From positions 1 through 21,311 of the IMG/VR virus record IMGVR_UViG_3300036760_000501: a stretch of 21,311 bases of DNA; one strand, 5' to 3'. The DNA is from a virus. Positions 1 through 21,311 of this stretch are shown here, piece after piece. A program made the position numbers and the translations under genes. Below the pieces are notes generated by a model. The model worked only from the letters and a program-made list of their open reading frames with translations. It ran no database searches and had not been told where the DNA came from. Numbering within the stretch: the stretch's first letter is position 1; each line of letters begins with the position of its first letter.

Positions 1-135
1 GCAACAGGTCCTCAGGGCGTTACGGGTCCTATCGGTCCTACGGGTGCAACAGGTCCTCAGGGCGTTACGGGTCCTATCGGTCCTACGGGTGCAACAGGTC
101 CTCAGGGCGTTACAGGTCCTATCGGTCCGACGGGT
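1..135 (+). repeat. Three tandem 45-bp collagen-coding repeats
   Basis: The unit is 45 bases (15 codons). Copies lie at 1-45, 46-90 and 91-135. Copies 1 and 2 are identical; copy 3 differs by two third-position changes (acg to aca, cct to ccg), both synonymous. More copies may lie upstream of the window. Near-identical DNA repeats of this kind can gain or lose units by slippage or recombination, which would change stalk length. Confidence 0.9.
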
Positions 136-186
136 CCAAACGCTGTATATGTTGCCGAATATCATTGCTTAGAGATTGAGTATTAA
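1..186 (+). CDS. Collagen-like phage fibre protein, 3' end only
   Basis: The window opens inside this gene; its start lies upstream. The visible 61 codons read as glycine-X-Y triplets ([15 protein letters not shown] units, three of them), then a short non-collagen tail ending in EIEY and a TAA stop. Collagen-like triplets in phages usually form trimeric stalks of tail fibres or capsid decorations, and the neighbouring fibre gene at 278 also has such a stalk, so a fibre role is inferred. The repeat section is much richer in G and C than the rest of the window. The short C-terminal part (about 16 residues) has no domain I recognise. A hairpin follows the stop within 20 bases. Whether the full protein is a fibre, a spike or a decoration protein cannot be decided from this fragment. 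Confidence 0.75.
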
Positions 187-199
187 TTTTTAGATAAAT

Positions 200-225
200 G
201 AAGGGAGAATTAATTTTCTCCCTTC
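200..225 (+). terminator. Stem-loop after collagen-like gene, terminator-like without U-tract
   Basis: The left arm gaagggaga (200-208) pairs perfectly with tctcccttc (217-225) around an 8-base loop. It starts 13 bases after the stop codon at 186. No run of T follows (the next bases are cccaaaaa), so it may be a weak terminator, a processing site or a 3'-end stabiliser rather than a canonical intrinsic terminator. Confidence 0.55.
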
Positions 226-236
226 CCAAAAATATG

Positions 237-242
237 TATAAT
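237..242 (+). promoter_or_regulatory. Possible -10 promoter element (TATAAT)
   Basis: A perfect TATAAT lies 35 bases before the fibre gene's ATG, between the hairpin at 200-225 and the gene. No good -35 hexamer is visible at the usual distance, and AT-rich DNA produces this hexamer by chance, so this is only a candidate. Confidence 0.25.
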
Positions 243-277
243 ATATTAATCATAAATTTTAAAGAGGAATAAAAATT

Positions 278-2107
278 ATGTCATTTAAAAGAGTTTCTAT
301 ACTTGATGAATTCTCCTGGCAACCATCTGTAAAAAGTAAAGATTTGACTTCTCCTCCTGCAGCTTCTAAAGGAGATAGATATCTTATTATTGATGCTGAA
401 GGCGGAATAGATACTTATACAAAATTAATGTTACATTGTAATGGAGTAGATGCTTCTACTACTTTTACAGATGATTCTTATATTCCGTATACTATAACTC
501 CTACTAATCAAGCACAAATTGATACAGCCGATAAAAAATTTGGTACTGCATCAGGTTTATTTGATGGTACTGCCGATTATTTATCTGCTATTGCTTCTAC
601 TGATTGGAATTTTGATGCAGATTTTACTATAGATTTTTGGTTTAAAACTCCATCAGTTACCTACAATCAAGTTTTAATAAAATCAGTATCAAATCAAAAT
701 TGGACAAGTGCATCAACAAATGATTGGGTTTTAATGCTTGGCGTTGATGGAAGACTTACTCTTTATATCAAAAATGTAGGTTATAGTGGCGGAAATGGCA
801 CTGCTTTATTAAATAACACATGGTATCATATTGCAGTAGTGAGATATGGAACAAGTGTAAAAATATATAGAAATGGTGTAGTAGATGGAACTGCATTAAC
901 TTCTTCTGCTACTTTTGGAAATACACAAGTATTAGAAATAGGAAGAATTGAAACTAATGCATCAGTAAAAGATATTTATGGTTGGGTAGATGAACTTAGA
1001 ATATCAAAGGGAATAGCCAGATGGACTACTAATTTTACCCCACCTACAGAAGAATATAGTGGCGAAACCGAATGGGTAGGTCATAATAATTCAATTACTT
1101 ATTACGACGGAAGTAATTGGCAATTTATTTCTCCAATAGAAGGAATGATTTGTTGGATAAATGATGAGAATAAATATTATAAATATGATGGAAGTATTTG
1201 GTCTGAATATATTGGTCAGGCTGGTCCTACAGGTCCGACAGGTGCAACAGGTCCCACAGGTCCTACAGGTCCGACTGGTCCTACAGGTGCGACGGGTGCA
1301 GGATATCCTAATGATGGAACAGTAAATCCAACTAATCTTCTTACTAACGGTGATTTTGAAAGTTGGAGTGCTGGTACTACAGTTGCTCCTGATGGTTGGA
1401 CATTGGCAGGAGCAGGGGCAAGTATAGCGAGAGAAGCGACGATTATTAAATTAGGGACATATTCGGCAAAAATCACAAGAAGTGGAGCTGATTGTTTTTG
1501 TTATCAAAATATAGAAAGTATTAAGGGACTTAATTATTGGGCAAATAGAACTATTACTTTAGGTTGTTGGGTATATGCGACAGTAGCAAATCGAGCCAGA
1601 ATTGTTATTAATGATGGAGATATTAATGGTAGTGATTATCATCCAGGTGATTCTTCATGGCATTTTTTAACAGTTACACATACAATTAAAAATGGAGAAT
1701 CCCTTGTTAGATTAATGCCAGTAATAGATAATGGAGATACATCAGCTTATTTTGACGGTGCAATGTGTGTAGAAGGTTCATCTATTTTTGCTTTTAGTCC
1801 GAAACCAGCACAGGATATAATGGGAGCAAAAGTATGGGTAAATTATAATGGTATTACCAAAACTATTTTGTCTTCATTTAATGTTTCAAGTGTTACTTAT
1901 AATTCAGTTGGAAATTATACTATTAATTTTATTAATGCAATGCCAGATGATAAATATGGAGTTTTATTTTCATCTGATAAAACTATAACAGAATTAGATT
2001 GTAATGACCAAAGTGCAGGTAGATATTCAGGGTATATAATTGTTACACATAAAGAAAATAATGTGGCAGCAGAAGCAGCACCAATAATGGTAGTAATATT
2101 TAGATAA
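278..2107 (+). CDS. Mosaic tail fibre / receptor-binding protein with LamG and collagen-like stalk
   Basis: 609 residues, start supported by aaagagga about 9 bases upstream. Domains in order: residues 19-42 (LTSPPAASKGDRYLI) look like the first half of a DUF2793-type fibre domain; 43-261 are a LamG / concanavalin-A-like lectin fold (FDGTADYLS, FTIDFWFKT, WYHIAVVR, GWVDELRISKGIARW); 263-310 resume the DUF2793-like pattern (WVGHNNSITYYDGSNWQFI, GMICWINDENKYYKYDG); 316-341 are collagen-like GXT triplets; 347-505 resemble a carbohydrate-binding jelly roll (NLLTNGDFESWS, YFDGAMCVEGSS); 508-609 resemble a fibre-tip domain common in phage tail fibres (WVNYNG, SSFNVSSVTYN, YTINF, AMPDDKYGV). The protein probably binds host surface sugars. 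DNA 404-524 is identical to 21191-21311, so the lectin part appears to be a shared module. Domain names come from pattern recognition; exact receptor unknown. Confidence 0.85.
   Translation: MSFKRVSILDEFSWQPSVKSKDLTSPPAASKGDRYLIIDAEGGIDTYTKLMLHCNGVDASTTFTDDSYIPYTITPTNQAQIDTADKKFGTASGLFDGTADYLSAIASTDWNFDADFTIDFWFKTPSVTYNQVLIKSVSNQNWTSASTNDWVLMLGVDGRLTLYIKNVGYSGGNGTALLNNTWYHIAVVRYGTSVKIYRNGVVDGTALTSSATFGNTQVLEIGRIETNASVKDIYGWVDELRISKGIARWTTNFTPPTEEYSGETEWVGHNNSITYYDGSNWQFISPIEGMICWINDENKYYKYDGSIWSEYIGQAGPTGPTGATGPTGPTGPTGPTGATGAGYPNDGTVNPTNLLTNGDFESWSAGTTVAPDGWTLAGAGASIAREATIIKLGTYSAKITRSGADCFCYQNIESIKGLNYWANRTITLGCWVYATVANRARIVINDGDINGSDYHPGDSSWHFLTVTHTIKNGESLVRLMPVIDNGDTSAYFDGAMCVEGSSIFAFSPKPAQDIMGAKVWVNYNGITKTILSSFNVSSVTYNSVGNYTINFINAMPDDKYGVLFSSDKTITELDCNDQSAGRYSGYIIVTHKENNVAAEAAPIMVVIFR
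404..524 (+). repeat. 121-bp direct repeat, copy 1 (LamG module in fibre gene)
   Basis: Every base of 404-524 matches 21191-21311. The repeat begins exactly at codon 43 of the fibre gene and stays in reading phase in both copies. Flanking DNA upstream differs at once. The right-hand limit is unknown because copy 2 runs into the window end. Confidence 0.97.
1223..1300 (+). repeat. Collagen-like GXT coding tract inside fibre gene
   Basis: Twenty-six codons (residues 316-341) dominated by GPT and GAT triplets, built from ggtcct/ggtccg, acr and gcr codons. It is shorter and less regular than the tract at 1-135 but uses similar words (gcaacaggtcc occurs in both). It likely forms a trimeric stalk joining the lectin part to the C-terminal domains. 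Confidence 0.85.
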
Positions 2108-2139
2108 AAGGAATATAAAATTATAGAAAGTAGGAAACA

Positions 2140-2859
2140 ATGACAAGTAAGGAACGATTAATAAAAAGACTAAAATCTCTAAAACAATATAAAGACCTTT
2201 CTCAAGATGAATTGGAGAAAGTAGTAGATAAAAAACTTGAAGAAGATGAGTTAATCAATTCTTTTGTAGGGTTGAATGAAAAAGAAAAAGAAAAAGCCCT
2301 ACAGCTCTACGACAAATACATAGGTGAAAATTCTTTTGAGAATCTAGCAGAAAAAAGTTCTTTGACAAATTTAGTATATTTGGAAGCCTTAAACGACCGA
2401 ATCAAGCTCTTCATCGAAAAGGAAGATAAGAATAAAGATGGAGCTGTTCCTATTCAAATGGTAGAACAACTTATCTCCAATAATGAACAGATAATGAAAT
2501 TGAAAGACCAATTAGGGATGATGAAGGATAAAACTAATAACTCTTTTATAGTTGCATGGGAAGAATTAAAGAAAAAAGCACTGACATACTACAGCGAACA
2601 TTGTGGGTCTACAATTGTAAAATGTCCGTATTGTCAACAACTATTTCATTTATTGATGAATATTGATAATTTGACAGCAGAAAAAAGTTCATTCTTTAAA
2701 GGTACGATGCTTTATAATTTACCACTACTCAATCTTTATCACCAAAAACGCATTACTAAAGAAGAAGTAGCTGATATATTGGGAGTACATGCTAAATATG
2801 TTGATTTTATATATTCTAACCTTTATTTAAAGGAATTGAGTAAAAATGAAGAGAAATAG
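2140..2859 (+). CDS. Protein of unknown role with zinc-type motif; possible small terminase-like
   Basis: 239 residues, mostly helical and strongly charged, with a taggaaa site before the ATG. The first 130 residues read as helices with coiled-coil character (many K, E and L). Around residues 154-170 the cluster HC...CPYCQQLFH could hold a zinc ion. Residues 204-228 (ITKEEVADILGVHAKYVDFIY) look like a helix-turn-helix. It lies directly upstream of the portal region, where many phages keep the small terminase, and a DNA-binding helical protein would suit that role, but I do not recognise the family. The large terminase is more than 10 kb away, which weakens the argument. It is the only gene here ending in TAG. 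Its last 14 bases overlap the following HNH gene. Confidence 0.6.
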   Translation: MTSKERLIKRLKSLKQYKDLSQDELEKVVDKKLEEDELINSFVGLNEKEKEKALQLYDKYIGENSFENLAEKSSLTNLVYLEALNDRIKLFIEKEDKNKDGAVPIQMVEQLISNNEQIMKLKDQLGMMKDKTNNSFIVAWEELKKKALTYYSEHCGSTIVKCPYCQQLFHLLMNIDNLTAEKSSFFKGTMLYNLPLLNLYHQKRITKEEVADILGVHAKYVDFIYSNLYLKELSKNEEK

Positions 2860-3412
2860 ATGTATTGACTGTAAAAAATTACTGGGAATTAAATCTTTTT
2901 GGAAACATACAAAAAGGTGTCGAAAATGCTATGCTAAATGGTTTAAAATTTCTTCTAATAATTCTAATTTTAAACATGGAGAAACATTAAAAAATCATCA
3001 TTGTATTATTTGTAGAATAAATAAGATTTGTTATAATAATTTTATTGATGGAACTAGAAAATGTCGTTCTTGTGCTAGTAAAGAAATATTTAAAAATCCA
3101 AAGAAAAACCCTTGGTTTATTCATGGAAATGGAAGAAATCCCTATTCCACTGAATTTAATAATAATTTAAAGGAAAAAATCAGAAACAGAGATAAATATC
3201 AATGTAAAAAATGCAATAAAATACAAGAACAGGAATTAAAAGATTTGCATATAAAATTAGCAGTTCATCACATAGATTATAATAAGAAAAATTGTAATGA
3301 GAATAATTTAATTACTTTATGCCACAATTGTCATTCTACAACAAAAGGAAATAGAAAGTATTGGAAAAAATTTTATAGTGCCAAAATTTTAACTATAAAA
3401 GAAAAGGAGTAA
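2846..3412 (+). CDS. Free-standing HNH homing-type endonuclease with zinc ribbons
   Basis: 188 residues. The N-terminal half carries paired CxxC knuckles (C6/C9 with C25/C28, C53/C56 with C73/C76), probably DNA-binding zinc ribbons. The C-terminal half is a clear HNH nuclease: the LKEKIRNRDKYQC lead-in at 108-120, C120/C123, HH at 141-142, N154 and C159/C162 in AVHHIDYNKKNCNENNLITLCHNC. Such proteins nick or cut DNA at a target site and spread their own gene into lacking genomes. The gene overlaps the previous gene by 14 bases and ends 4 bases before the portal gene. Its last codons (aag gag taa) form the portal Shine-Dalgarno site. It is visibly richer in A and T than its neighbours and is related to the HNH protein at 13025. 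A role as a packaging-associated HNH is less likely given the zinc ribbons. Confidence 0.88.
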   Translation: MKRNRCIDCKKLLGIKSFWKHTKRCRKCYAKWFKISSNNSNFKHGETLKNHHCIICRINKICYNNFIDGTRKCRSCASKEIFKNPKKNPWFIHGNGRNPYSTEFNNNLKEKIRNRDKYQCKKCNKIQEQELKDLHIKLAVHHIDYNKKNCNENNLITLCHNCHSTTKGNRKYWKKFYSAKILTIKEKE

Positions 3413-3416
3413 TAAT

Positions 3417-5102
3417 ATGGCTAACGCACTTCCAATGTTTGAACAATTTCTCAATTACTTATATCAGACTGGAGAAATCTCTGTACCAGAAAATTATCAT
3501 GAGAGATGTGGTAAAGTGGAAGAGATGTTGGATAACGATATTTCTGGAATGGTCAATTCTCTTTTAGATTATGCTGTGAATTCATCTTCTGAAGCGAATT
3601 ATAGAGTAGAATGTTCTGAACCTACTCTTCAGAAATTATTGAATCTCTGGTTAGACCAGATTAATTTAGAGATTAAAGGCATCCCCACTGGTCTCCAGGC
3701 TCTTTCTACCGAATATTTCAGAGAAAGGTGGGAAGGTTCTTCGTTTTGTATTTTGAGAATAAAAGACTGGCAAAAAATTACAGCAGATAATATTACAATT
3801 GAAGTACCTACTACAATGTGGTTTGTAAATGGTGGTTCTATTTATGTTACTAGACCCAAAGATAAAAATTATCAATTGGGTTCTGACAAATATTATTTAG
3901 ATAAAGAAGCAAAAGTTGAAATTCCAGAAAATAAAAAAGAAAAAATAATTATACAAAAACCTTATGATAGATGGTTCGACCAATATTCAACACCCTACCT
4001 TATTAGAAAAGGTGTATATAAAAATTGGTTAGCTATGAAAACATTACAGGATAAATCTGATGAAGTAATAGCTAAGATTTTACCTTATTTATTTTTAATC
4101 TCAAAAGGTACCGAAAATATGTTTATACAGGGTGAAGTTGATTATTCCGATGAAGAGTTAAAGACCTTGACTGACAATTTTAAGGACCAACTTGAAAAAT
4201 ATAAAGGACAAAGAGGGGGAACTCCACTGAATGCAGTTCCTTTTGACCAAAAATATGAACATTTAATTCCTGATTTAAGAAATATTCTAACTGAGGAACT
4301 ATATCGTCAGGGAGTCAGGGCTATGTTAGCTGGTCTTGGATTTATTGATATGTTAGAAATCACTCCTTCCAGACAAGAAGATAGATTGAATCCAAAACCA
4401 TTTTTAGCAGAAGTTAATAATGGAGTGGCTGGCTTTAAAGCTATGTTATTAGAAACAATTTATTTAATAATAGATAGAAATAAAGCAAGTCATCGTAAAT
4501 TATTTAGTGATTCAGGAAAAATTATAGTTATAAATTCTCCACTGAAAATTAATACAGAGAAAATACTTGATGCTATTCGTTCTGGATTTGACAGAGGTAC
4601 TTTAAGTTTACAATCTTATACAGAAACATTAGGATTTGATTATCCAACAGAGAAAGAACTGAGAAGTAAAGAATTAGAAAATGGTGATGAAGATTTAATG
4701 TATCCTCATATGATTCAGAATACCGAAAAGGACCCAAATACTAATGTTCAACCTTCGAAACCACAGAATCCGAAAAATGAAAATCAGAATAAATTAAAAA
4801 ATACACCAGAAACAAAAACAAAGACTGCTGAAGTGATTAATGAACCTATAGACCCAAATTTAGAAGTAATAAATCCCAATGAGTTAGAAATGGCTCCTTA
4901 TGATAAATCCAACCCCCCAGCATTTTTAAAGAAATATCCTGCTGGAGCTATTGATGTATTTATTACTGTATTTAATGAATCTTATCCAAAAGGAGAAGAT
5001 TATGCCTTCCCAGTGGCTTGGACAGCATTAAAAAGATGGATGAAAAAACATGGTTATCATAAAGAAGGTGAGAAATGGGTAAAATCTCAGGAGATAAAAT
5101 AA
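3417..5102 (+). CDS. Portal protein with C-terminal ChaB-like domain
   Basis: 561 residues. The body matches the phage portal pattern: an N-terminal helical region (MLDNDISGMVNSLLDYAV), a beta-rich wing with FRERWEGSSFCILRIKDW, a long stem-helix region (KTLQDKSDEVIAKILPYLFLISKG) and a crown-like helical part after residue 290. Portals form the dodecameric ring through which DNA enters the head and on which the neck is built. The last 62 residues (500-561, with AWTALKRWMKKHGYHKEGEKW) resemble the small ChaB domain, which turns up in phage head proteins with unknown role. Residues 474-482 are INEPIDPNL, also found at residues 14-22 of the capsid protein. Its ribosome site is inside the HNH gene just before it. 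The TAA stop shares its last A with the next ATG. Confidence 0.85.
   Translation: MANALPMFEQFLNYLYQTGEISVPENYHERCGKVEEMLDNDISGMVNSLLDYAVNSSSEANYRVECSEPTLQKLLNLWLDQINLEIKGIPTGLQALSTEYFRERWEGSSFCILRIKDWQKITADNITIEVPTTMWFVNGGSIYVTRPKDKNYQLGSDKYYLDKEAKVEIPENKKEKIIIQKPYDRWFDQYSTPYLIRKGVYKNWLAMKTLQDKSDEVIAKILPYLFLISKGTENMFIQGEVDYSDEELKTLTDNFKDQLEKYKGQRGGTPLNAVPFDQKYEHLIPDLRNILTEELYRQGVRAMLAGLGFIDMLEITPSRQEDRLNPKPFLAEVNNGVAGFKAMLLETIYLIIDRNKASHRKLFSDSGKIIVINSPLKINTEKILDAIRSGFDRGTLSLQSYTETLGFDYPTEKELRSKELENGDEDLMYPHMIQNTEKDPNTNVQPSKPQNPKNENQNKLKNTPETKTKTAEVINEPIDPNLEVINPNELEMAPYDKSNPPAFLKKYPAGAIDVFITVFNESYPKGEDYAFPVAWTALKRWMKKHGYHKEGEKWVKSQEIK
4836..4862 (+). other. Shared-peptide segment INEPIDPNL, portal copy
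   Basis: Codons 474-482 of the portal gene encode INEPIDPNL. The same nine residues are encoded at 6833-6859 near the start of the capsid gene. The two DNA stretches differ at four of 27 positions, all third-position synonymous changes. Both copies are followed within about 10 residues by a P-x-E-L or P-N-E-L stretch. Confidence 0.9.
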
Positions 5103-6706
5103 TGGATAATAAAAAATTAATAGCGGAAGCATTACTTGATTTAGCAAAAAACTCTTTAACTACTATTATCGAGGTATCTGATGATAAAGAATTAATTGCT
5201 GCTGCTAAAATAATAGGAATAGTAGTTCCATCACCCGATTTGGCAGTATTAAAAACGGTTTATGCCGAAATAGATAAGGCAAATAGGAATGGAGTTGTTT
5301 TACCAAAAAATGCAGTAGAAAAAGGATTACCTACATTAATTGGTAAACAGATAAACTGGGAACATGAAGGTGCTGGAAGAATTTGTGGATATATTATTGA
5401 TGCAAAAATAAATGAAAATAAAATCGAGATAATTGGTGTAGTATTTAAATCTTTATTTCCAGATGAGATGGTAGGAGTCAAAGAGAAATTTGCAGATAAA
5501 GAGTTAGCAGTTTCTTTTGAAATCTGGAATCGAAATCCCGAAGATGGAGAATCAGTAGTACACGAATTAGCAAATGGTTTTCGTTCTATTGACCCCATTA
5601 TATTTCATGGTTGCGGTTTACTTTTAGCGAATCAACCAGCTTGTCCTAAAGCCATAGTATATAAATTAATAGCAAGCAAAGAAATCGAAGCAGCAGAAAA
5701 AATAGTAGATAAAATATTTGAAGAGAACTTAATTTGTGCAAGTATGGCTATAGAAGAGCCAAAGTGCAAAAATTGTACATCTTGTACATGCGAAAAGGAG
5801 GGACAAAAAGTGGAAGAAATAAAGTTAGAAGAGATTTTAGTCAATGATTATGAAGGCGGAGAAATAGAGGAAGCTGCGAAATTAACTACTGAACAACGTA
5901 ATGCATTACCTGATAGTGATTTTGCGTTGATTCAGGAAAGAGATGGTAAAAAGGTTCGTAGATTCCCAATTAATGATGAAGCACATGTTAGAAATGCTCT
6001 TGCTCGTTTGCCCCAGGCAAAAGACATAACAGAGGAAGAGAGAACAAGTGCACTGGCAAAGATTTTGAAAAAAGCCAAAGCATTGAATATGACAGAATTG
6101 TTAAAGAAATATGAAAAATCTTCCGAAGAAACCCAGACTGAAGTTAAAACAGAGGAAACCAAGCCAGTAGATGCTGGTGTTGAAACGAAACCTGTAGAAA
6201 CAAAAGTCGAAGAAACGAAGGAAGAAATTAAAACAGAAGCTGTTTTCTCACCTATTGACAAAAAAGTTGTATGTGTCGTAAATGAAGAGACAACCACTAT
6301 AACTGATACAATGGATGGTAAAGTTGAAAGAAAAGGCATGAGGAAAACTACTAGAAAATTCGACGATGGTACTGAAGAAGTATTTGCAGAAGAATTTCAA
6401 GCAGTAAGTACTTATACTCAGGCTCAAGTCGATGAGCAAGTTAATACTGCAAAATCCGAAAAGGATGCAGAAATTACTGCTCTAAAAGTTGAGCATGATA
6501 AAACCTTACAGGCTAAAGATGAAGAATTAAAAAATAAAAATACAGAACTTGAGCAAAAGACTCAAGAGATTGCTAAGTTGACGGTAGTCGAAGAGCCCAA
6601 AACAGAAAAGATAATGACTGTCGGGGCTGTTGAGACAGAAAAAATTAGTGAAATAAAAAGGCAAGCAAAAAAAATCAATGATATAATTGCTTCCAAACAT
6701 AGTTAA
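5102..6706 (+). CDS. Prohead protease fused to scaffold-like coiled coil
   Basis: 534 residues from the ATG at 5102, chosen because caggag lies 8 bases before it and its A is the last base of the portal TAA. A start at 5075 would have no well-spaced site. Residues 60-185 look like the herpes/HK97-type prohead protease fold: NWEHEG with candidate catalytic His88 and ELAVSFEI with candidate Ser138. A Cys cluster at 222-230 (CKNCTSCTC) may bind metal. Residues 262-330 match a module frequent in phage protease/structural proteins (LTTEQRNALPDSDFAL, RRFPINDEAHVRNALARL). A repetitive T/E/K-rich linker (340-380) leads to a long coiled coil (about 440-495) typical of scaffolds. It probably guides capsid assembly and then cleaves the scaffold. 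Gene order, between portal and capsid, agrees. Confidence 0.82.
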   Translation: MDNKKLIAEALLDLAKNSLTTIIEVSDDKELIAAAKIIGIVVPSPDLAVLKTVYAEIDKANRNGVVLPKNAVEKGLPTLIGKQINWEHEGAGRICGYIIDAKINENKIEIIGVVFKSLFPDEMVGVKEKFADKELAVSFEIWNRNPEDGESVVHELANGFRSIDPIIFHGCGLLLANQPACPKAIVYKLIASKEIEAAEKIVDKIFEENLICASMAIEEPKCKNCTSCTCEKEGQKVEEIKLEEILVNDYEGGEIEEAAKLTTEQRNALPDSDFALIQERDGKKVRRFPINDEAHVRNALARLPQAKDITEEERTSALAKILKKAKALNMTELLKKYEKSSEETQTEVKTEETKPVDAGVETKPVETKVEETKEEIKTEAVFSPIDKKVVCVVNEETTTITDTMDGKVERKGMRKTTRKFDDGTEEVFAEEFQAVSTYTQAQVDEQVNTAKSEKDAEITALKVEHDKTLQAKDEELKNKNTELEQKTQEIAKLTVVEEPKTEKIMTVGAVETEKISEIKRQAKKINDIIASKHS

Positions 6707-6793
6707 TCCCCCTAAGATAAGGGAGAGATAAGCAAAAGGTATAAGCCTAGCTTAAAGATAGAACAAAAAAAAAAAAGAAAAAGGAGAACTAAA
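6707..6793 (+). promoter_or_regulatory. A-rich leader and strong ribosome site of the capsid gene
   Basis: This 87-base spacer holds a run of 12 A residues (6765-6776), then gaaa and a strong aaggag (6781-6786) placed 7 bases before the capsid ATG. A-rich leaders keep mRNA unstructured and favour ribosome loading, which fits the most heavily made virion protein. A 4-bp inverted repeat near 6710-6723 is too weak to call a terminator. No convincing promoter was seen. Confidence 0.45.
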
Positions 6794-7741
6794 ATGGAGC
6801 GAAAAGATGTAATCGAAAGAGCTTATCAGCTTATTAATGAGCCGATAGACCCTAATTTGAGATGCCCGATTGAGTTAATGGACATCGTGAATTATCGTGA
6901 ATCTGATGCTGGAGAGACTGTTGAGTATTTTGCTTCTTCTGCACAGGATAGAGCTGCTGATGATATTTATGCTGCGTCTGCTGTTGGTACTATAGTTTAT
7001 AATAAAATAGCGTTGAAGACCGTTCTTCCTTTGACATTTGTTGGTTTGCAGTCAAAGTTAGAAACAATATTGATTGAAGAGATTTTGAATTCTAAAGACC
7101 AGTCCGCCCTGGCTGCGAAGAAAGATGGTATTATTCGTGCTATGGATTGTGAGGAAGTTCGTAGAATTCTTAATCTAGTGTTAGCAGTTCCTTCCCAGAA
7201 GATTACCAAAGTCGCTGGCGAAGATTTGCTTGATGTTATTATCAGAATGAAACAGTTAGTGTCTGATTATGCTACAGACTATGTTTTGTTAGTAGCTTCT
7301 GATGTTATGAATAAAATCGAATCTTATGATAAAGAAAATGTAGATAATTTTCATTATAAAATGGAGATTATGGCTGAGATAGCAAAGTTAGGTATTGCGA
7401 AAGTCGTTAAAGTTCTCGGAAATTCTGGTTTAGCTGCTGGCGATACCCCAGTTATTGCTGCTGGAAAAGCAATTTTAGTGGGTCGCAATTCTAGTTTAGC
7501 TGCTGGTAGACCTATTACCTTTTTGCGTAGAAAATTCGCAAAAGAAATAGCTGAACTTAGTGGTGCTGCCGAGGGTGCAGTTCGTTTAATTGATGTTGCA
7601 AAGACACCTACAGTTATTAATGGTGCTGGTGCGAATACATTAGGTTATGGCGTATTTGGTTATGAATCTATTATACAGGTTCTAACTAATTACAGAGCTG
7701 TTTCTTTCAGTGAAAATATTATAGCTGTTATTGCTCCATAA
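6794..7741 (+). CDS. Major capsid protein (HK97 fold inferred)
   Basis: 315 residues, preceded by an A-rich leader and a strong ribosome site. It sits directly after the protease/scaffold gene, the usual place for the capsid subunit. It has a helical N-terminal arm, then alpha/beta segments consistent with the HK97 fold (EILNSKDQSALAAKKDGIIRAMD, TDYVLLVASDVM, ILVGRNSSLAAGRPITFLRRKF, GYGVFGYESIIQVLTNYRAVSF). Codon choice shifts toward cgt, gct and gtt and away from the very AT-rich codons of neighbours, a usual sign of heavy expression. Residues 14-22 (INEPIDPNL) recur in the portal. No long removable N-terminal delta domain is present, in line with a separate scaffold in the preceding gene. 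A hairpin follows the stop. Confidence 0.87.
   Translation: MERKDVIERAYQLINEPIDPNLRCPIELMDIVNYRESDAGETVEYFASSAQDRAADDIYAASAVGTIVYNKIALKTVLPLTFVGLQSKLETILIEEILNSKDQSALAAKKDGIIRAMDCEEVRRILNLVLAVPSQKITKVAGEDLLDVIIRMKQLVSDYATDYVLLVASDVMNKIESYDKENVDNFHYKMEIMAEIAKLGIAKVVKVLGNSGLAAGDTPVIAAGKAILVGRNSSLAAGRPITFLRRKFAKEIAELSGAAEGAVRLIDVAKTPTVINGAGANTLGYGVFGYESIIQVLTNYRAVSFSENIIAVIAP
6833..6859 (+). other. Shared-peptide segment INEPIDPNL, capsid copy
   Basis: Codons 14-22 of the capsid gene encode the same nine residues found in the portal at 474-482. The position, in the N-terminal arm, is where capsid subunits often contact scaffold or are trimmed by the maturation protease. Confidence 0.9.
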
Positions 7742-7758
7742 ACTTAGTCGATATAAAA

Positions 7759-7783
7759 GGGAGGGGTCAAATTGCCCCCTCCC
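7759..7783 (+). terminator. Stem-loop after capsid gene, terminator-like without U-tract
   Basis: The left arm gggagggg (7759-7766) pairs perfectly with cccctccc (7776-7783) around a 9-base loop. It is very GC-rich for this genome and starts 18 bases after the capsid stop. The following bases are ccacaaaaa rather than a T run, as in the hairpin at 200-225. It may attenuate transcription or protect the 3' end of the capsid message. Confidence 0.6.
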
Positions 7784-7820
7784 CCACAAAAATTATATCA
7801 CTAAAAAGAAAGGTAAAGAA

Positions 7821-8306
7821 ATGATTGAAAGATTAACGAAGAAAAATATAATAGATATCATTACTTTCTTATTAGATAATAAGGATTACTGCGAAGATTT
7901 TTATTTTACCATTGATAAAGAAAGACTCTTTCTAAAAAACAATCAATCTTTAACAAAAAAGATTTTAGAAAAGCAAGAATGTTATGGTTATTTTAATAAT
8001 GGTTTAAAAGGTATTTTGATAATTTATAAAAGTAAGGGATTTCGACCATATCTAAAAATGTTAGCAGTAGATTATAATGCTACAAGTAATCTAATGAAAT
8101 TTTTTGTATGGAATAAGAATGAAATAGATATTTTTTGTAAATTAAAAATAAATAATCCAATAATAAATGTTATAAAGAGATTTGGATTTTTTGTAAAAGC
8201 AAATAGAGGAAAAGAAGTATTATTCTTTAAACAAGGATTTAAAACACTCAATAAATTAGTACCTAAAGACGACTATTTACCGAAAGAAGAGAAACGACTT
8301 TATTAA
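7821..8306 (+). CDS. Small GNAT-like (acetyltransferase-fold) protein, uncertain
   Basis: 161 residues from the ATG at 7821, which has aaagg upstream. A longer TTG-started frame from 7731 would run through the capsid stop region and the hairpin and is unlikely. Residues 75-135 follow a GNAT-like pattern: a strand pair (GILIIYKSKG, KMLAVDYN), a helix, then NNPIINVIKRFGFFVKANRGKEVLFFK, which resembles the end of GNAT proteins where an N-P residue pair leads to a G-F turn. The acetyl-CoA pyrophosphate loop (Q/RxxGxG/A) is not visible, so activity is doubtful. It sits alone between capsid and neck genes, is AT-richer than the capsid gene, and could be an accessory gene inserted into the head module. 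Function is not established. Confidence 0.6.
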   Translation: MIERLTKKNIIDIITFLLDNKDYCEDFYFTIDKERLFLKNNQSLTKKILEKQECYGYFNNGLKGILIIYKSKGFRPYLKMLAVDYNATSNLMKFFVWNKNEIDIFCKLKINNPIINVIKRFGFFVKANRGKEVLFFKQGFKTLNKLVPKDDYLPKEEKRLY

Positions 8307-10309: not shown

Positions 10310-11080
10310 ATGATTACATGTTCTATTAAATTTAAAATGGATAAATTACCAAAAACTCAACAAAAATATTTTTGTAAACATTGTGGATACCCAATAAGTA
10401 TGATAACAGGCATTTATGGTCAATCTCAATGTAAACAATGTCAAAATCGTAAATTTTTTATAGACAAAGATGACCTTTATAAAGAATATCTACAAAAAAA
10501 TAAAGCAATTACAGAAATAGCAAAAATATATAAATGTTGTTATGGAACTATTTATAAATGGTTATTAAATTATAATATTCCAATTAAAAGTAAAAGAGAA
10601 ACACATTTAGGTAAAAAACGACCAGAACAAAGTTTAATGATGATGAGTGATAAAAATCCTACTAAAGGAACACATAGACCCAAATCTGTTAGAAATCAGA
10701 TAAGTAAAGCAAGAATAGGAAAATATTCTGGAAAAAATAATCCTATGTTTGGAAAAAAAGTTTCTTATAAATGCAGTTATGGTCATGGTGGCAAATATAA
10801 AAATACATGGTTTAGAAGTTCTTATGAAATTGCATATGCTAAATATTTAGATTGTAATAAAATTAAATGGTTATACGAGTCCAAAGCATTTGATTTGGGA
10901 GAAACAACGTATAGACCAGATTTTTATTTAATTCAAAGTAACACATATATTGAAGTAAAAGGATATTGGACTAAAGATGCTTTATATAAATTTAATTTAT
11001 TCAAACAATTATATCCAAAAATTAAAATAATAGTTTTTGATAAGACAAAATTAATGAAGGAGGGAATAGATGTTCGATAA
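10310..11080 (+). CDS. Homing-type endonuclease: zinc ribbon, HTH, NUMOD3-like and PD-(D/E)XK-like nuclease
   Basis: 256 residues. Parts in order: a zinc ribbon (C22/C25 and C41/C44); a helix-turn-helix at 66-92 (AITEIAKIYKCCYGTIYKWL); a NUMOD3-like DNA-binding stretch at about 126-150 (SVRNQISKARIGKYSGKN, NPMFGK), typical of homing endonucleases; and a C-terminal nuclease of PD-(D/E)XK type with E173 (FRSSYE), D204 (YRPDFYL) and E215-x-K217 (YIEVKGYW). This combination suggests a free-standing homing endonuclease of the VSR-like/PD-(D/E)XK group, unlike the HNH proteins nearby. The start directly abuts the previous stop and no good ribosome site is seen; ATG at 10337 is an alternative. Its end overlaps the next gene by 11 bases and holds that gene's aaggaggg site. 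Confidence 0.8.
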   Translation: MITCSIKFKMDKLPKTQQKYFCKHCGYPISMITGIYGQSQCKQCQNRKFFIDKDDLYKEYLQKNKAITEIAKIYKCCYGTIYKWLLNYNIPIKSKRETHLGKKRPEQSLMMMSDKNPTKGTHRPKSVRNQISKARIGKYSGKNNPMFGKKVSYKCSYGHGGKYKNTWFRSSYEIAYAKYLDCNKIKWLYESKAFDLGETTYRPDFYLIQSNTYIEVKGYWTKDALYKFNLFKQLYPKIKIIVFDKTKLMKEGIDVR

Positions 11081-12798: not shown

Positions 12799-13035
12799 AT
12801 GGAAAAAAATATCTTATTAGATGAACAACTTCTAAAATTTCTTCTGACTCAAGCCTCTCAGAAAGCGGTCGGAAAATGCATGAAGAGATTCGAACTTTCT
12901 GATAATAAAGAAGAAATTAAAAAACAAATTAAGGAACTTCTTTATGAATGTTTTCGGGATTTATCTGATTCTATTATTAATTGTAGTAAGACAGATAATG
13001 CAATACATTTAACAAAAGGCGAAAATGCTAAGTAA
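12799..13035 (+). CDS. Small hypothetical protein upstream of terminase region
   Basis: 78 residues from the ATG at 12799, with gagga just upstream. A TTG-started reading from 12775 would begin inside the terminator stem and is rejected. The protein is helical and charged (EQLLKFLLTQASQKAVGKCMKRFEL, NKEEIKKQIKELLYECFRDLSDSI) with no motif I recognise. It is separated from the large terminase only by an HNH gene, so before that insertion it may have been the direct neighbour of the terminase; a small helical partner such as a small terminase subunit is conceivable but it is shorter than most. Its last 11 bases overlap the HNH gene. Confidence 0.6.
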   Translation: MEKNILLDEQLLKFLLTQASQKAVGKCMKRFELSDNKEEIKKQIKELLYECFRDLSDSIINCSKTDNAIHLTKGENAK

Positions 13036-13573
13036 ATGTTTAGATTGTAAAAGAGAAATAGACAAACGAGCCAAAAGGTGTTGTAAATGTTATCATAAAC
13101 ATCAAATAGGTTCTGAGAATGGAAATTATAAACAAGGAAAATATATTAGAAATGAATGTATTGATTGTAAAAAGAAAGTCGACCCAAGAGCAAAAAGATG
13201 CAAAAGTTGTGCTGCTCAATATAAATGGAAAGTTAGTATAGGGTTAATTCATAGAAATCAAACAGGAAATAAAAATCCAAACTGGATAGATGGTAGAAGT
13301 TATGAACCATATCCTTTAGAATTTACAGAAGAACTTAAAGATAAGATTCGCCAACGTGATAATTATACTTGTCAAAACTGTGGTATGACAGAAGAGGAAC
13401 ATTTAATAGTTATAGGTCAAGTTTTACATGTTCATCATATTGATTATGATAAAACAAACTGCAAAAAAGAGAACTTATTGAGTTTATGCAGTTCTTGCAA
13501 TACAAGAGCGAATTATAACAGAACATATTGGCAGAAATTTTATAAAGGAAAAATTCAATGCTTACAAAAATAA
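13025..13573 (+). CDS. Free-standing HNH homing-type endonuclease next to large terminase
   Basis: 182 residues. Two zinc-ribbon units (C5/C8 with C19-C22, C45/C48 with C59/C62) share the text pattern CxDCK...RAKRC, suggesting an internal duplication. Then NPNWIDGRSYEPYP leads into the HNH nuclease: LKDKIRQRDNYTCQNCG (C116/C119), HVHHIDYDKTNC (H137, H138), N150 and C155/C158. It resembles the protein at 2846 in domain order and motif spacing. It overlaps the upstream gene by 11 bases and the terminase gene by 16 bases, and its aaagga near 13545 serves as the terminase ribosome site. HNH proteins beside terminase genes can act in packaging, but the zinc ribbons and similarity to the other free-standing copies favour a homing role. 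Confidence 0.88.
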   Translation: MLSKCLDCKREIDKRAKRCCKCYHKHQIGSENGNYKQGKYIRNECIDCKKKVDPRAKRCKSCAAQYKWKVSIGLIHRNQTGNKNPNWIDGRSYEPYPLEFTEELKDKIRQRDNYTCQNCGMTEEEHLIVIGQVLHVHHIDYDKTNCKKENLLSLCSSCNTRANYNRTYWQKFYKGKIQCLQK

Positions 13574-20230: not shown

Positions 20231-20785
20231 ATGAAAAAAATCTGTAGCAATTGTAAAAAAGAAAAATTTTTAAAAGAATTTCATCAAGATAAAAGAGCAA
20301 AAGATGGATTGCGTTGTGAATGTATATTATGTAGAAAACAAGATTCTAAAGAATATTATTTAAAAAATAAAATAAGAATTAAAAAACAAACTAAAATATA
20401 TCGAGAAGTCCATAAAGAAGAACAAAAAGATTATAGTAGAATATATAAAAATAAAAGAAGAAAAACCGATATAGATTTTAGATTATTAGAATGTTTACGT
20501 AATAGATTGCATTGGGCTTTAAAAAATAATAACAAAATACAAAAAACAATTAATTTAATCGGATGCAATATTAAATTTTTAAAAAAATATTTAGAAAATC
20601 AATTCAAATCAAATATGTCTTGGGATAATTATGGTCTTTGGCATATAGACCATATTAAACCATGTTGTACGTTTGATTTATCGAAAACAAGCGAACAAAG
20701 AAAATGTTTTAATTTTAAAAATTTAAGACCACTGTGGAAAATAGAAAATTTACAAAGACCGAAAGGATTAAAATGTCTGAATTAA
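20231..20785 (+). CDS. HNH endonuclease (IDHI-type) with N-terminal zinc knuckle, free-standing
   Basis: 184 residues. The N-terminal part has C5/C8 and C31/C34, a zinc-knuckle pair, then a long basic helix with Y/K-rich repeats (YYLKNKIRIKKQTKIY, DYSRIYKNKRRK). The C-terminal nuclease follows the pattern LIGCNIKFLKKYLENQF, GLWHIDHIKPCCTFDLS, CFNFKNLRPLW, IENLQ, with H138, D140, H141 and N164/N173 as likely active-site residues. This HNH type differs from those at 2846 and 13025. No Shine-Dalgarno site is visible; two hairpins precede it. The end overlaps the next gene by 13 bases and supplies its aaagga site. It is very AT-rich compared with the structural genes around it. Confidence 0.85.
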   Translation: MKKICSNCKKEKFLKEFHQDKRAKDGLRCECILCRKQDSKEYYLKNKIRIKKQTKIYREVHKEEQKDYSRIYKNKRRKTDIDFRLLECLRNRLHWALKNNNKIQKTINLIGCNIKFLKKYLENQFKSNMSWDNYGLWHIDHIKPCCTFDLSKTSEQRKCFNFKNLRPLWKIENLQRPKGLKCLN

Positions 20786-21183
20786 TTTTTTTCTGGATTG
20801 CTTTATTTAAAGATAATACCAAAATTGAACAATTTAACGAAGACGGAACAGAACATAAATTTAAAGAAGTTCAAGAAAAAATGAAAGACCTTGCTTATTT
20901 TAATTTAACAAATAAAGAAGGTAAATTTTTTACGGTAGATTTATTAAAGGGTATAATTGGTTACAATGATTTAGTATTACCTTATAGAGAAGTAAAAGAA
21001 AAGAAAAACAATATTAGATTAATCTTTTTTCGTAGACATACAATTCACATGACTGAAGCGGGGCATCCAATTGACCATACAATTATATATCATTTGGGAT
21101 ATCAATGGAATGATGAATCTGGAAAAAATAGACAGATTATTTTAAAAATAGATGAACAAGGTAATTGGATTCTAGGAGAATAA
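20773..21183 (+). CDS. Hypothetical tail-region protein
   Basis: 136 residues from the ATG at 20773 (aaagga 5 bases upstream, inside the end of the HNH gene); a GTG at 20734 is a poorer start because it would lie deeper in the HNH gene and has no site. Pattern: FFWIALFKDNTKIEQFN, then HKFKEVQEKMKDLAYFNLTN, a central basic strand (NNIRLIFFRRHTIHM) and an ending HLGYQWN...NRQIILKIDEQGNWIL. The general layout is similar to the product of 19276-19644. No domain recognised and no function offered. It is followed one base later by a LamG-type gene. Confidence 0.55.
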   Translation: MSELIFFWIALFKDNTKIEQFNEDGTEHKFKEVQEKMKDLAYFNLTNKEGKFFTVDLLKGIIGYNDLVLPYREVKEKKNNIRLIFFRRHTIHMTEAGHPIDHTIIYHLGYQWNDESGKNRQIILKIDEQGNWILGE

Positions 21184-21184
21184 A

Positions 21185-21311
21185 ATGGCTGGAATAGATA
21201 CTTATACAAAATTAATGTTACATTGTAATGGAGTAGATGCTTCTACTACTTTTACAGATGATTCTTATATTCCGTATACTATAACTCCTACTAATCAAGC
21301 ACAAATTGATA
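21185..21311 (+). CDS. LamG-type lectin / tail fibre gene, 5' end only
   Basis: The ATG lies one base after the previous stop; 42 codons are visible before the window ends. After Met-Ala the sequence is identical, base for base, to codons 43 onward of the fibre gene at 278. In that gene the same sequence opens a LamG-like lectin domain, so this gene encodes the same domain but starts almost directly with it. No ribosome site other than aggagaa near 21173-21179 is seen. It is probably a second receptor-binding or adhesion protein. Confidence 0.8.
   Translation, partial: MAGIDTYTKLMLHCNGVDASTTFTDDSYIPYTITPTNQAQID
21191..21311 (+). repeat. 121-bp direct repeat, copy 2 (truncated by window end)
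   Basis: Identical to 404-524 without a mismatch, in the same codon phase. The match starts at codon 3 of the new gene and continues to the last base of the window, so the full repeat is longer than 121 bases or exactly this long by chance. Confidence 0.97.

Follow-up and report, generated by a model that had tools for sequence, protein, structure and literature searches.

The DNA analyzed here, referred to as the window, is an entire IMG/VR record of exactly 21,311 bp and represents a fragment of an unclassified tailed phage. Near its left end lies a side fiber gene, located upstream of small-terminase-like and portal-like genes; at its right end the record breaks off within a second gene which opens with a stretch of the same DNA. 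Names such as portal and terminase were assigned from size, order, and mutual similarity; the portal-like and terminase-like window genes gave no match in Pfam or PHROGs. The following features were located:

1 to 186, plus strand: C-terminal end of the preceding collagen-like fiber gene, syntenic with L026:2-406
278 to 2107, plus strand: side fiber of 609 aa, consisting of N-terminus, DUF2793 part 1, LamG insertion, DUF2793 remainder, collagen-like repeats, and C-terminal domain
314 to 403, plus strand: split DUF2793 domain, portion before the LamG insertion, beginning at about profile position 12
404 to 1063, plus strand: LamG/ConA-like module, left copy, placed by profile and model, with the right border predicted from the family end motif FTPPTxxY
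404 to 524, plus strand: stretch matching 21191-21311 exactly by direct comparison
1064 to 1204, plus strand: split DUF2793 domain, portion after the LamG insertion, covering profile positions about 41-86
20776 to 21183, plus strand: conserved gene of ~149 aa marking the slot in relatives (alternative start 20734)
21185 to 21311, plus strand: start of the second gene, Met-Ala followed by LamG, cut by the record end
21191 to 21311, plus strand: right copy of the LamG module, of which the record contains the first 121 bases, assigned by DNA identity to the left copy

The LamG module and its place in the side fiber

The left copy of the module was scored with the Pfam profile Laminin_G_3 (PF13385) and reached 60.5 bits (curated cut-off 27.6). 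The right copy comprises 42 residues and is too short for profile scoring; its DNA is identical to that of the left copy. An AlphaFold2 model showed pLDDT values mostly above 90 across the module (residues about 45-258). In a fold search the model resembled laminin G and glycan-binding domains, with matches to laminin LG5, AbnA domain 4, and phage LamG proteins. The profile score and the quality of the model supported the original prediction of a LamG module, which, as modelled, is LamG/ConA-like with a jelly-roll fold. Binding domains of clostridial neurotoxins were also found among the top PDB fold matches; at ~10-16% identity they reflect the generic jelly-roll lectin fold and have no meaning beyond it. 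A PDB sequence search with both proteins was uninformative.

Relatives of the module were detected in 386 phage records, every one under 60% identity, and in at least 586 IMG/VR stretches. Among the closer relatives, GIDxxT-like module starts and ARWTxNFTPP-like ends are found repeatedly; therefore, both module ends can be placed, at 404 and at about 1063. The family end motif thus predicts a right border near 1063 and a module length of ~660 bp. LamG proteins opening with MA-GID were found elsewhere too (L062, L087).

The module had been described as following a 42-residue fiber N-terminus. This description could be refined: the regions flanking the module matched DUF2793 (Pfam PF10983) with 17.2 and 43.0 bits when scored separately, and joined without LamG they gave a single match of 67.6 bits covering profile positions 12-86. 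LamG is inserted inside the DUF2793 domain of a collagen-like side fiber, and base 404, which is the first base of both the LamG module and the 121-bp identity, is the insertion junction.

A related locus, L026, shows the gene order fiber, fiber, small-terminase-like, large-terminase-like, and portal-like, with HNH-type genes interspersed. Its counterpart of the 609-aa fiber has a similar N-terminus and DUF2793 without LamG, and the C-terminal end of its preceding fiber (15 residues) resembles that of the preceding fiber in the window (13 residues). Synteny and likeness of the fibers therefore indicate that the left 403 bases of the window are in their natural place. The LamG-less fiber of L026 is compatible with a gain in the window fiber and also with a loss in L026. 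Collagen-like Gly-X-Y repeats in tandem units of 45 bases were observed in the adjacent fiber genes (window 1-186 and 1223-1306; L026:2-406).

The 121-base match and the second module position

Direct comparison across the whole window revealed that bases 404-524 and 21191-21311 are identical at 121 of 121 positions, and in the left flanks of both copies only 2 of 10, 4 of 20, and 8 of 40 bases agree. A simple composition estimate from the length and base content of the window gave ~16 bp for the longest chance repeat, and apart from the 121-bp match the window contains no long repeat of non-tandem type. In the left copy, counted from the fiber start at 278, base 404 opens codon 43; in the right copy, counted from the ATG at 21185, base 21191 opens codon 3 in the same phase. 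The predicted identity, common codon phase, and unrelated DNA on the left were thus all recovered. Apart from this match, no pair of template/variable or inverted repeats fitting a DGR or an invertase was found within the window, which covers a minor part of the genome; some of the window proteins were searched for an RT or a recombinase. The 121-mer and its first 27 bases had no exact match in the viral contigs scanned, and a DNA search of bases 1-8000 against phage records returned collagen-repeat matches only.

The compared 121 bp contain only about 26 synonymous sites. With zero differences in 121 bp, the rule of three bounds divergence between the copies at roughly 2.5%. The probability of zero differences in 121 bp is about 0.002 at 5% divergence, which excludes an old duplication; at 1% and 2% divergence it is 0.30 and 0.09, respectively, and both values are compatible with the identity observed. 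The original prediction had proposed either a very recent duplication or ongoing gene conversion. Recency is supported insofar as an old duplication is excluded; ongoing conversion is not needed to account for the identity, given the bound on divergence.

The right gene starts with ATG-GCT in frame behind a ribosome-binding-like GGAG. Homologues of the 149-aa gene in front of it were found in G001, G002, L021, L116, and L117; the locus L024 was identified through its slot protein, i.e., the product of the gene in this position, and no 149-aa homologue was detected there. Up to codon 2, the window shares 40 of 45 bases with L021 and 37 of 45 with L116; beyond codon 2 these values drop to 18 of 45 and 13 of 45. 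Since identity with both loci is lost after codon 2, the right copy begins where the slot usually changes its content. Indeed, the first module of the slot protein differs among the relatives: it is BNR-like in L021 and F5/8C- or DUF5000-like in L024, scoring 17.6 and 22.8 bits, respectively, both below cut-off, and it has no name in G001 and L116; in the distant relative L117, F5/8C domains come after a divergent LamG (22% identity, E 5e-7). The N-terminal parts of the slot proteins from L021, G001, L024, and the window showed no significant mutual similarity. In G001, an HNH-type gene is located between the 149-aa gene and the slot gene.

The slot modules of G001, L021, L024, L116, and L117 lead into LSD-type (LSDxKIK) repeats, and a conserved C-terminal part following these repeats is common to G001, G002, L021, and L024. 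G002 is exceptional in that its 343-aa slot protein is encoded by a separate gene and the next repeat protein is without a long N-terminal module; hence, the right copy could also belong to a stand-alone protein. The slot protein, termed a tail protein because its gene is surrounded by tail genes, had no family match, and a structure model (of L021) was too poor to use. From synteny we infer that the right gene represents the N-terminal slot of a long LSDxKIK-repeat tail protein which would continue past 21311; it is probably not a second side fiber. Thus, the idea of a module exchanged between fiber-type genes stands as far as two unrelated protein contexts are concerned and is amended as to the second context, probably a slot in a tail protein.

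The record stops within the right copy; therefore, 121 bp is a lower bound and the right border is out of view. A border out of view would also be expected if the right gene were a second full copy of the fiber from LamG onward. A copy beginning exactly at the module border would then be a coincidence, and the slot of the relatives holds other modules and a different tail protein, which makes this explanation extremely unlikely. The original prediction had named a match continuing as a whole duplicated gene as an outcome that would speak against it; the slot content of the relatives renders this outcome unlikely.

Origin of the two copies

The nearest long relative of the window phage is G001 with 97 kb, which seems near-complete. 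Its ends (1-111 and 97035-97145 of 97,145 bp) are identical over 111 bp that belong to a repeat of collagen type, which suggests that the map is circular and near-complete. The structural block of G001 is likewise bordered by the side-fiber region on one side and the slot gene on the other, at a distance of about 20 kb. The long relatives measure 97-102 kb, and in these the slot gene is followed by further tail genes.

We consider it probable that the ~660-bp lectin module was recently copied between the side fiber and the N-terminal slot of the tail protein, both in one phage genome. The LamG module would then occupy two adhesin positions at both ends of the head-tail gene block, namely an insertion into DUF2793 of the collagen-like side fiber and the N-terminus encoded by the gene that follows the conserved ~149-aa gene. 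One copy would recently have been made from the other through recombination, either inside a single genome or between close relatives infecting the same cell, and the record would end inside the module because the assembler failed to pass the second copy. The left record end falls in a collagen-type tandem repeat, and repeats at both ends of a record are consistent with short-read assembly. A correspondence of 121 to an assembler k-mer length is a guess; contig-end repeats in other loci revealed no common k-mer length.

A match of this length located at a record end is what breaks in an assembly graph typically produce, as would be expected if one of the left contexts had been falsely joined to the LamG module. 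Both contexts, however, look biologically sound rather than chimeric: on the left, the DUF2793 halves flank the module in frame and synteny with L026 is maintained; on the right, the in-frame ATG-GCT lies behind GGAG, and codon 2 is exactly where the DNA identity to L021 and L116 stops. We therefore regard a false join as very unlikely. Somewhat less improbable, yet still unlikely, is a mixture of strains, one carrying the module in its side fiber and another in its slot gene, which the assembler merged into a metagenome consensus ending at the shared stretch. The module would have moved recently in this case as well, without two copies per genome. A single contig carries both left contexts, connected by an uninterrupted series of genes, and the sequence itself does not require a mixture; both copies probably lie within one genome.

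A contig end repeating an internal stretch is also the pattern given by a closed loop, here a circle of 20,787 bp which would rejoin itself at base 404, bases 1-403 forming a side branch; recombination between the two direct copies could excise a circle of this size. Three observations leave this explanation hardly credible: the window proteins searched included no recognizable replication or lysis gene, the long relatives are 97-102 kb in size with further tail genes after the slot gene, and bases 1-403 are syntenic with L026 and hence not a stray branch.

Other LamG loci were inspected for similar pairs. More than one module was present in 31 of 80 loci, and in 0 of these 31 was the pair near-identical. 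Judged from these sequences, near-identical module pairs do not appear to be common in assembled data; as such repeats tend to break assemblies, they may be under-counted. A standing exchange, in which the same cassette with the same left border is repeatedly copied between the DUF2793 site and the tail-protein slot and keeps the adhesin specificities matched, is considered very improbable.

Related systems and putative function

Adhesin module shuffling as such is a known process. Phage tail fibers, tail spikes, and baseplate proteins show domain mosaicism, with modules shared at high identity in otherwise unrelated receptor-binding and tail proteins (Smug et al. 2023, PMC10684548). That study compared proteins across many phages, whereas here two contexts with identical DNA are located on one contig. 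Carbohydrate-binding modules decorate several virion proteins of 936 lactococcal siphophages, including evolved Dit (PMC6669499); there, binding modules were likewise added to different structural proteins of one phage. Binding was measured for two of those modules; the phage considered here is uncultivated, and its module is LamG. Synechococcus phage S-SKS1 also has multiple LamG modules, with related stretches of 87-88% DNA identity over about 200-260 bp; these are older copies in neighboring genes or one gene, whereas the window copies are identical and 20.8 kb apart. Recent duplications of adhesin segments are known from EfV12-phi1, in which tail-fiber segments were duplicated during experimental evolution (PMC6365445), and from the T4 adhesin (Tetart 1996, as cited in PMC6365445). 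Unlike the copies in the window, those duplications were tandem, inside one gene, and under selection with resistant hosts. A literature search for gene conversion or intragenomic duplication of tail fibers found no direct precedent. The particular feature of the present case is the DNA identity between a DUF2793 insertion and an N-terminal slot ~20.8 kb apart which share the module start.

Both proteins are likely to be virion adhesins, as deduced from neighborhood and domain content. They may display the same jelly-roll lectin and help to bind surface sugars; from what is known of the family, two adhesins equipped with one and the same lectin module would be expected to prefer the same sugars. 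Provided that a single genome harbors both copies, adhesin module shuffling would have been caught soon after the event, with joins falling at a domain border, one of them in a protein site that tolerates insertions and the other at codon 3 of the second protein. Furthermore, the position after the 149-aa gene emerges as a module slot in a phage group with few annotated relatives. A host search in genome contigs with the slot protein and a capsid-like protein returned no relative.

Additional features were observed in this phage group. Several structural genes of the window are separated by free-standing HNH- or endonuclease-like genes (2846-3412, 10310-11080, 13025-13573, and 20231-20785), whose places vary among the relatives and of which many related copies exist in G001, as expected of homing endonucleases. 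The large-terminase-like protein of G002 is encoded by one frame of 911 aa (L013:3104-5839), whose halves match the window protein around ~350 extra residues; these are perhaps an intein or another in-frame insertion, and the frame had no intein match in Pfam. Finally, sugar-related genes are located near the tail block of relatives (L021:7058-14589, L024:13523-22030, and G001 63460-68275 and 95669-96391). By reading, they are sugar nucleotidyltransferase- and glycosyltransferase-like; an O-antigen-ligase-like protein of G001 scored 20.7 bits, below cut-off. These genes hint at a modification of surface glycans.
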